Source: SAR116 cluster bacterium AG-426-I14
GTDB taxonomy: Bacteria > Pseudomonadota > Alphaproteobacteria > Puniceispirillales > Marisalimonadaceae
Assembly: GCA_003210055.1 (NCBI GenBank)
Contig: QCNS01000010.1
Location: forward strand, 1 to 64,000
Length of the DNA stretch: 64,000 nt
Direction: 5' to 3'
Position numbers and translations under genes: made by a program. Positions 8,050-9,031 of the stretch are shown here, in pieces (positions within the stretch are counted from its first letter, which is position 1; each line of letters begins with the position of its first letter). A model generated the notes under the pieces. That model worked only from the letters and a program-made list of their open reading frames with translations. It had not been told where the DNA came from and made no database searches.

Positions 8050-8083
8050 AAAAAAAGACGGTAGATGGGGTGCTACCGTCTTT
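8050..8083 (-). terminator. Intrinsic terminator after DUF1127 and its RNA hairpin
   Basis: On the minus strand an 11-base perfect stem (AAAGACGGTAG pairing with CTACCGTCTTT, 8054-8064 and 8073-8083) closes an eight-base loop CACCCCAT and is followed by a run of seven T. This is the clearest rho-independent terminator in the window. It lies about 80 bases after the DUF1127 stop, so it ends that transcript and defines the 3' end of a likely small RNA. It may also block read-through toward the DMT transporter on the same strand. Confidence 0.85.
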
Positions 8084-8161
8084 AATAAAATCATTTATCT
8101 ATTCATGAGGAGGAGGAATGATATAAAAAAAATAGATAAATAATTTATTCTTTATAATTGT
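8050..8161 (-). ncRNA. Candidate 3'-UTR small RNA of CcsR/'cuckoo' type
   Basis: Downstream of the DUF1127 stop on the minus strand, 11-base perfect arms (8131-8141 and 8093-8103) form a hairpin. Its 27-base loop contains CCTCCTCCTC (8116 to 8107), a near copy of the anti-Shine-Dalgarno of 16S rRNA. A terminator hairpin follows ten bases later. In Rhodobacter sphaeroides the CcsR1-4 RNAs have CCUCCUCCC-type loop motifs and are processed from the 3' part of a transcript that begins with a DUF1127 gene. The same order of DUF1127, C-rich-loop hairpin and terminator is seen here in a single copy. Expression and processing are inferred. Confidence 0.6.
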
Positions 8162-8416
8162 TTATGCAGCTTTATTTTTTTCTAATTCCATCATCTTATC
8201 GTTAACTAAATTTTTTGAAATAGGCATCTTTATAACTTCATTTGATTTATAAAAATTACCATTTGAAAGCTGATGTCTTGTGATTCCTAGCTGAGACAAT
8301 TCGTTATCTGACAAAAAAGATAAAGCTTGTCTTGTTCTAATAATAGCAATTTTTTCAAAAATATTGATTATTGCAGTTGAGAGTTTACTTAAATTAAAGA
8401 TCATTTTTTGTTCCAT
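8162..8416 (-). CDS. DUF1127 (YjiS-like) small protein
   Basis: This small protein of up to 84 residues has a DUF1127 core at about 24-50 (RTRQALSFLSDNELSQLGITRHQL), matching the family pattern of basic-R-x-x-x-L-x-x-L-x-D-x-x-L-x-D-I-G-hydrophobic. DUF1127 proteins are small and basic, and some bind RNA; in Rhodobacter one (CcaF1) affects maturation of the sRNAs encoded behind it. Two starts are possible: the ATG at 8416, with no obvious ribosome-binding site, or an in-frame ATG four codons later, which has GGAAC just upstream. The N- and C-terminal extensions are longer than usual. A candidate sRNA and terminator follow. Confidence 0.82.
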   Translation of the reverse strand: MEQKMIFNLSKLSTAIINIFEKIAIIRTRQALSFLSDNELSQLGITRHQLSNGNFYKSNEVIKMPISKNLVNDKMMELEKNKAA

Positions 8417-8436
8417 TCTATGAGTATTTTTCTAAA

Positions 8437-8457
8437 ATTATGTTTATGAGACATAAT
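8437..8457. promoter_or_regulatory. Inverted repeat at the predicted DUF1127 start of transcription
   Basis: Seven-base arms ATTATGT (8437-8443) and ACATAAT (8451-8457) are separated by seven bases. They cover the region from the predicted -10 element to the expected transcription start of the DUF1127 gene. This fits a second operator or a hairpin at the 5' end of the mRNA. The evidence is positional only. Confidence 0.35.
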
Positions 8458-8485
8458 ACTAAATTAACAATTTGTTAATATACAA
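8456..8485 (-). promoter_or_regulatory. Predicted sigma-70-type promoter for the DUF1127 gene
   Basis: On the minus strand TTGTAT (8485 to 8480) and TAGTAT (8461 to 8456) are separated by 18 bases and would start transcription about 30 bases before the ATG at 8416. The spacer is filled by a perfect palindrome. The RpoH-type promoter known for the Rhodobacter relative is not evident. This is a motif match and was not tested. Confidence 0.4.
8463..8479. promoter_or_regulatory. Perfect 17-base palindrome, candidate MarR operator
   Basis: ATTAACAA, one central base, then TTGTTAAT form a perfect dyad. It lies exactly between the predicted -35 and -10 of the DUF1127 promoter and about 140 bases before the divergent MarR gene. 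Its size and its AACAA/TTGTT arms suit MarR-type dimers. Repression of DUF1127 by the neighbouring MarR protein is my inference. Confidence 0.5.
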
Positions 8486-8585
8486 ATTAGGAAAATAATT
8501 ATTTCCAAAATAGAAACAATTAATTTATTTAACCTTAATATTTAATAAATTAGAAATAATAAATTCTAGTAAATAATTTAAAAGT

Positions 8586-8620: not shown

Positions 8621-9031
8621 ATGGTTGTTCATGAATATTGTAATTGTTATGTTATTAGAAAAATATCTTTAAAAATTTCTAAAATTTATGATAATGCTCT
8701 CAAAACGAGTGGTCTGAAAATAACCCAATATGCAATTCTTAAATATATAAGTATTTTAAAAAAAACTAACCTCAAAAACCTCTCTACCACTATGGATTAC
8801 AATAGGAGTACTTTGGGAAGAAATATAAGGATACTTGAAAGAAGAAAACTCATTCGCTTTAATAAAGGTAAAGATAAAAGAGAAGTTGAAATTATTATTA
8901 CTAATGATGGAATCAAGATATTTAAGATAGCCAGAAAATCTTGGAAAAATATCAATGATCAAATTTCTAAAAATTTAGGAAAAAATAAAATAAAAATGTT
9001 GGGAGAAATTTTGAATGATAATATTTTATAA
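8621..9031 (+). CDS. MarR-family transcriptional regulator
   Basis: This is a 136-residue winged-helix DNA-binding protein. The order is an N-terminal dimer helix with a CxC near residues 7-9 followed by IRKISLKISKIYDNAL, then a wHTH at about 30-100 with LSTTMDYNRSTLGRNIRILERRKLI as the recognition region and GKDKREVEI as the wing. Family members with the same N-terminal C-x-C pattern are common in proteobacteria, and cysteine-based redox sensing is possible but unproven. It begins a plus-strand run with the three channel genes, 15 bases before the first. It probably regulates that cassette and perhaps the divergent DUF1127 gene, using the palindrome at 8463-8479. Confidence 0.85.
   Translation: MVVHEYCNCYVIRKISLKISKIYDNALKTSGLKITQYAILKYISILKKTNLKNLSTTMDYNRSTLGRNIRILERRKLIRFNKGKDKREVEIIITNDGIKIFKIARKSWKNINDQISKNLGKNKIKMLGEILNDNIL

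Follow-up and report, generated by a model that had tools for sequence, protein, structure and literature searches.

A DUF1127 gene and a probable anti-Shine-Dalgarno RNA in a conserved cassette with a candidate LysR-type promoter box, from a SAR116 family apparently devoid of hfq

The minus strand of the analysed stretch of SAR116 DNA (the window, 64 kb) carries a gene for a small DUF1127-like protein followed by a C-rich hairpin and a terminator, which raises the question of whether an anti-Shine-Dalgarno (aSD) RNA is encoded behind the gene. The combination of a short DUF1127 gene and a CcsR-like sRNA, termed CIN1, is an established association in Alphaproteobacteria (PMC10253847). In the open-access literature no report of a DUF1127-aSD module in SAR116 was found, and the literature search also retrieved no description of post-transcriptional regulation for SAR116 bacteria with small, A+T-rich genomes.

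The region 8050-8516 (minus strand) is one self-contained cassette of promoter box and promoter, DUF1127 gene, aSD hairpin and terminator, since the box moves with the module between two genomic settings, beside either MotA/ExbB-like genes or an MFS-transporter-like gene. The conserved box (8490-8516, minus strand; 27 nt, TTTCTATTTTGGAAATAATTATTTTCC) contains a T-N11-A dyad of the LysR type and represents a candidate activator site. A candidate -10 hexamer, TATTAT (8453-8458, minus strand), lies 31 nt downstream of it according to the promoter alignment. The gene (8162-8404, minus strand, stop codon included; 80 aa) was assigned from Pfam and from the comparison with the relative L003. It is followed on the same strand by the aSD hairpin with a perfect 11-bp stem and a 27-nt loop (8093-8141) presenting the motif CCUCCUCCUC (DNA CCTCCTCCTC; 8107-8116), which is complementary to GAGGAGGAGG, and by an intrinsic terminator with an 11-bp stem, the loop CACCCCAU and seven T (8050-8083). 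Every relative has a terminator at this place.

A direct check of the sequence showed the hairpin arms (8131-8141 and 8093-8103) to be perfect 11-base complements and placed the terminator arms at 8073-8083 and 8054-8064 around the loop CACCCCAT, with the seven T at 8050-8056, three of them within the stem. The predicted fold of the RNA 8050-8161 (minus strand) reached -27.9 kcal/mol compared with a mean of -8.7 kcal/mol for shuffled sequences (z = -7.7; 0 of 200 shuffles equally stable), and the first stem of the aSD hairpin extends past 11 bp in it. The arms, C-rich loop, terminator stem and T run described in the initial annotation are thus exact.

The 10-mer of the loop alone is not rare, as two matches with at most one mismatch occur in the 64 kb and two were reached in 22 of 100 shuffles. 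For genome-wide searches 824 kb of the window's own assembly (1.88 Mb, 65 contigs, 78% complete) were sampled. This portion has a GC content of 0.29 and contains 792 occurrences of CCTCC and 20 of CCTCCTCC. Nevertheless, the combination in the window of a CCTCC hairpin with a 17-bp stem (G-U allowed) and a real terminator is unique in the 824 kb, where only a weak 6-bp stem stands behind the one other hairpin with CCTCC.

The protein itself scores below the threshold of the Pfam DUF1127 model (PF06568; 14.1 bits, gathering cut-off 23.3), and 19 of 30 homologues match it (E <= 0.1, best 4e-08), so that the Pfam support for its identity comes from the relatives. A Pfam DUF1127 search over the whole class was discarded, its best matches being other subtypes, mostly without the motif. 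The region up to 8416 noted in the initial annotation is probably too long for the gene: the second ATG at 8404 is more likely to be the start, because L003, a relative of 90% identity, has the first ATG in another reading frame. The cassette is adjoined by a divergent MarR-like regulator gene (8621-9031, plus strand). This gene was rejected as the cognate regulator, being confined to genus g1.

The family of the window's genome (f1) was represented by 34 genomes of four genera (g1-g4) with 36 DUF1127 copies, including duplicates in G017 and G023; the copy G023:C8 was counted through its covariance model match. All 36 copies are followed by a terminator and by hairpins with a CCUCC(UCC) loop, one in g1 and g3 and two in g2 and g4, and no f1 genome was found to keep the gene without the hairpin. 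The stem sequences differ between the genera (UUUAUCUAUU in g1, UCUAGAUA in g3, AGUAUCC or AAUAUUCG in g2 and AAUACCUGC in g4) while the loop is constant. The alignment of this 3' UTR, proposed with the initial annotation as a search for compensatory changes, revealed them in g2/g4, pairing being kept as the stems change between genera: over 21 sequences 97.7% of the cells are paired, compared with 29-57% in slid controls, and double changes occur at four pairs. The window and L003 differ at eight of 112 nt, and both 11-bp stems as well as CCTCCTCCTC are free of differences. The C-rich character also claimed for the second (terminator) loop is kept in g1, g2 and g4 and is absent from g3, and is therefore not general.

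A search of 101 genomes with the covariance model R1 detected no full copy apart from DUF1127 genes; its weak additional matches either covered the module terminators on the opposite strand or were two truncated copies in G009 at contig ends. The module, initially noted as a single copy, is so in this assembly, but some relatives possess two. Duplicated cassettes were seen in g2 genomes at L149 and L150 (G009) and at L019 and L092 (G017). Some g2 assemblies that look complete lack the module, which was not accepted as a loss, as G009 (100% complete) holds two RNA 3' halves at contig ends and is a case of a collapsed duplicated module. Automatic presence/absence calls for DUF1127 mislead in such g2 assemblies, both G009 copies being cut at contig ends. 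Furthermore, a small conserved hairpin-like element, GAAGGAATAAGCCTTC, was observed in L015, L018, L023 and other g2 loci in the leader between the promoter and the DUF1127 start.

Nearly every f1 copy is preceded by TTTCY-N5-RGAAA-YAATYATNTTCY. In the window the box is the only match at 0-3 mismatches, with none expected. In 101 relatives the matches with at most one mismatch number 31, each of them at a module, and 10 others with two mismatches are scattered; by hand count the matches in 101 genomes comprise 32 DUF1127 modules (0-2 mismatches), one stand-alone RNA and the 10 scattered ones (two mismatches). In the promoter alignment, built from the best 27-mers of 28 f1 modules and two stand-alone sRNAs, the best TATAAT-like hexamer is located 31-40 nt past the box in all 30 promoters (36 nt in 16). 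Relative to the start predicted in this way, the T-N11-A dyad with its half-sites TTTC(C/T)/(G/A)GAAA would span approximately -70 to -56. At the nfeR1 promoter LsrB occupies a T-N11-A box at -72 to -60, close to the position predicted here; the LsrB half-sites are TGCA/GCAT compared with TTTCC/GGAAA here (PMC10746234). The box sequence thus suggests a regulator of the LysR type, as a class only, its half-sites not being those of LsrB. The Brucella VtlR/LsrB motif was likewise rejected as an equivalent of the box due to differing half-sites (PMC12595884, PMC10746234). A second box with two mismatches in the window's own genome lies inside a surE-like coding sequence and was taken as chance. 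In L096 (G095) and L097 (G082) a box with two mismatches, TTTCCATAATGGAAAAAATTAGTTTCC, precedes a gene that resembles those for ABC-type substrate-binding proteins and has a GGAGG site; this may reflect the same regulator or chance.

Beyond f1, CCTCC occurs within 130 nt downstream of 13 of the 16 DUF1127 genes of family f4, compared with GGAGG in the same place at one of 16 and CCTCC further downstream or upstream at none of 16 each. The order-level relatives f2 encode more distant DUF1127 genes, only one of seven with CCUCC. The DUF1127 proteins of f2 and f4 match the f1 profile weakly and seem to be other subtypes.

In the sister family f3 a search of five genomes (61-88% complete) detected no DUF1127 gene, and four of the five contain a stand-alone aSD RNA of about 45 nt, with a clear box in two. 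In G068 (L129, 255-425, minus strand) and G062 (L130, 1501-1629, minus strand) the box and a -10-like hexamer are directly followed by GTTTCCTCCCAGAAATAAA and a terminator without any gene between them; the same RNA is present in G059 (L133) and G065 (L136) with a less clear box. This RNA consists of a CUCCCA mini-hairpin and a terminator and is flanked by MOSC-like and flavodoxin-like genes. Its terminator stems vary with pairing kept (CTCTGCCA/TGGCAGAG, CCTCACCT/AGGTGGGG, CCCTACCT/AGGTAGGG). Since the f3 RNA stands without any gene in front, the aSD RNA is independent of the DUF1127 gene, and since the same box precedes it, the box belongs to the promoter of the RNA.

We consider it likely, with a probability of roughly 0.7, that the cassette encodes an aSD RNA which acts like NfeR1/alpha-r14 and CcsR, yet without Hfq. 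Gene and RNA would be transcribed together, probably activated by a LysR-type regulator bound around -70, and the 3' end would be released by cleavage in the AU-rich stretch behind the stop codon, RNase E being the probable enzyme. The presumed product, an sRNA of some 100 nt, would comprise the C-rich loop and the terminator; its loop would pair with GGAGG ribosome-binding sites and thereby block translation. The most likely targets are solute-binding proteins of transporters, together with further uptake or energy genes of high expression.

The hairpins might instead act in cis as a 3' UTR, protecting the DUF1127 mRNA and ending transcription, with a C-rich loop that has no target in trans. 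This would agree with their position directly 3' of the gene in f1. However, the loop is kept while the stems change, the opposite of what mere stability would need, and a box of the same type would drive an aSD RNA without a gene in front in f3, so that a purely cis-acting element seems unlikely. Clearly less probable is an autoregulation in cis, with the CCUCC loop pairing either to the ribosome-binding site of the DUF1127 mRNA that carries it or to that of the gene behind the module. Loop and gene share a transcript, and in the g2 copies this following gene has an AGGAG site. However, GGAAC is all that the DUF1127 leader itself offers in g1/g3, GGAGG is missing from it in g2, and the gene behind the terminator varies between copies (EamA or another). 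Even less can be said for an attenuator or terminator control of the downstream EamA transporter gene. In g1 and g3 this gene follows in the same orientation, but g4 and some of g2 have another gene in its place, and neither the minimum-energy nor the centroid structure contains an alternative anti-terminator fold. A chance C-rich hairpin is excluded by the 36/36 conservation, and an element of the opposite strand (GGAGGAGG site before an ATG) can practically be dismissed since, despite GAGGAGGAGGAATG on the plus strand, the ATG opens only M-I-stop and is absent in the g3 copies.

Returning to the aSD RNA acting in trans, GGAGG sites are few: even when starts were chosen to favour Shine-Dalgarno matches, 4.3% of 727 ORFs have one. 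A strict search for GGAGG-N3-9-ATG yielded none in the window and 18 genes in the 824 kb, seven of which encode solute-binding proteins (SBP_bac_5, Peripla_BP_6 twice, TctC twice, DctP twice); the others include a xanthine/uracil permease, an ABC ATPase, proteorhodopsin and HU. The initial annotation had described GGAGG sites as strong at ribosomal and fab genes, but none of the 18 belongs to either group. Signal-peptide-like proteins were enriched 5.3-fold (odds; p = 0.003) among the GGAGG genes in a heuristic, post-hoc test. The list matches the target class of NfeR1 and AbcR, yet it may reflect expression only, because strong Shine-Dalgarno sites usually belong to highly expressed genes and thus mark abundant proteins. 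The mRNAs of solute-binding proteins are verified targets of NfeR1 and AbcR1/2 (PMC8844928) and are repressed by NfeR1 (PMC10746234, PMC8844928). The strongest predicted pairing (-26.3 kcal/mol) was rejected as a ribosome-binding site, as it falls on (GGA)5, a glycine run within hemF-like coding sequence whose start was misassigned. The run in this gene (L181, 18241-18927, minus strand) is fully complementary to the loop and may be a target within a coding region.

RNAs of this kind usually rely on Hfq as helper protein. The Pfam model PF17209 scored above its cut-off in none of the f1 genomes compared with 42 of 43 genomes of other families. In f3 the gene order is trkA-hfq-hflX; in all 15 f1 genomes checked (L195-L209, L195 being the window's genome) trkA is followed by a D-amino-acid-aminotransferase-like gene and an hflX-start ORF, both named from their sequences, with no hfq between. 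Judging from these gene contents, hfq has apparently been lost from family f1, so that Hfq would not be the partner of the f1 RNA, unless undetected. A tentative extension, which we regard as rather improbable, is that the DUF1127 protein from the same transcript serves as a dedicated partner of the aSD RNA, forming a minimal RNA-plus-chaperone cassette that replaces Hfq. The distribution over the families agrees with such a replacement, f1 possessing DUF1127 without Hfq, f3 Hfq without DUF1127 but with the stand-alone RNA, and f4 both.

The LysR-type box marking the cassette, the stand-alone form in the sister family and the persistence where hfq is apparently lost are new. The riboregulation module of Rhodobacter and rhizobia is thereby extended to SAR116 bacteria of the open ocean, whose genomes are small and A+T-rich and in which a simple one-RNA brake on nutrient-uptake proteins is suggested. 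A DUF1127-sRNA pair that persists where hfq appears gone furthermore provides a natural case bearing on the dispute whether the DUF1127 domain binds RNA or protein (PMC12501420).

Processing by RNase E with the help of the RNA-binding DUF1127 protein is one of the marks of the CcsR/CIN1 locus. The ccaF1-CcsR locus of Rhodobacter sphaeroides (CcsR1-4/CIN1) resembles the cassette in its layout, aSD hairpin RNA and an intrinsic terminator lying behind a short DUF1127 gene in the same orientation, as in all 36 f1 copies. It differs in its four homologous RNAs, its RpoHI/RpoHII promoter (PMC10253847) and the interaction of the CcsR RNAs with Hfq (PMC8307010), compared with one aSD hairpin, a LysR-type box with a TATAAT-like -10 and an apparently absent hfq here. 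AbcR1/AbcR2 (alpha-r15) also pair through aSD motifs with the ribosome-binding sites of ABC transporter mRNAs, abcR1 being activated by LsrB (PMC8844928), and the f3 mini-hairpin with its CUCCCA loop invites this comparison; they bind Hfq, however, and are transcribed without a DUF1127 gene, and the window has no Rfam match to alpha-r15. In the Brucella VtlR regulon a LysR-type regulator likewise controls DUF1127 genes and an aSD sRNA (PMC12595884), but there AbcR2 is a separate gene and the VtlR motif CAATGCAGCCATGCA differs from the box.

NfeR1 of Sinorhizobium meliloti (SmelA075/SmelA099, alpha-r14) shares the CCUCCUCC loop on variable stems and has a T-N11-A box upstream of a sigma-70-like promoter, as is predicted here; its independence of Hfq and its solute-binding-protein targets would probably be shared as well (PMC10746234, PMC8844928). 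In contrast, it has its own transcript with three CCUCCUCCC hairpins and other half-sites in its box. The CCUCCUCC(C) loop of alpha-r14 is represented by CCUCCUCCUC in the window and by CCUCCUCCC on differing stems in the relatives, but instead of two to four adjacent motif hairpins the window, g1 and g3 have one, with two in g2/g4; cuckoo RNAs possess three and four (PMC3927594), and RS0680a two. A covariance search of the kind proposed with the initial annotation gave no score above threshold: the whole window contains no Rfam match at gathering thresholds, the best family, ar14 (RF02344), reaching 26.7 bits compared with the required 58.8 (E 0.0041 for 481 nt), and no match with E <= 0.05 was obtained in the loci of 20 relatives. 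A CcsR/cuckoo-like aSD RNA behind the DUF1127 gene thus stands in its main lines, by anatomy and by its conservation throughout f1. Taking into account that two tests fail, the number of motif hairpins and the Rfam score, the RNA of the window is a reduced variant of the CIN1/CcsR/alpha-r14 (NfeR1, "cuckoo") kind rather than a member.
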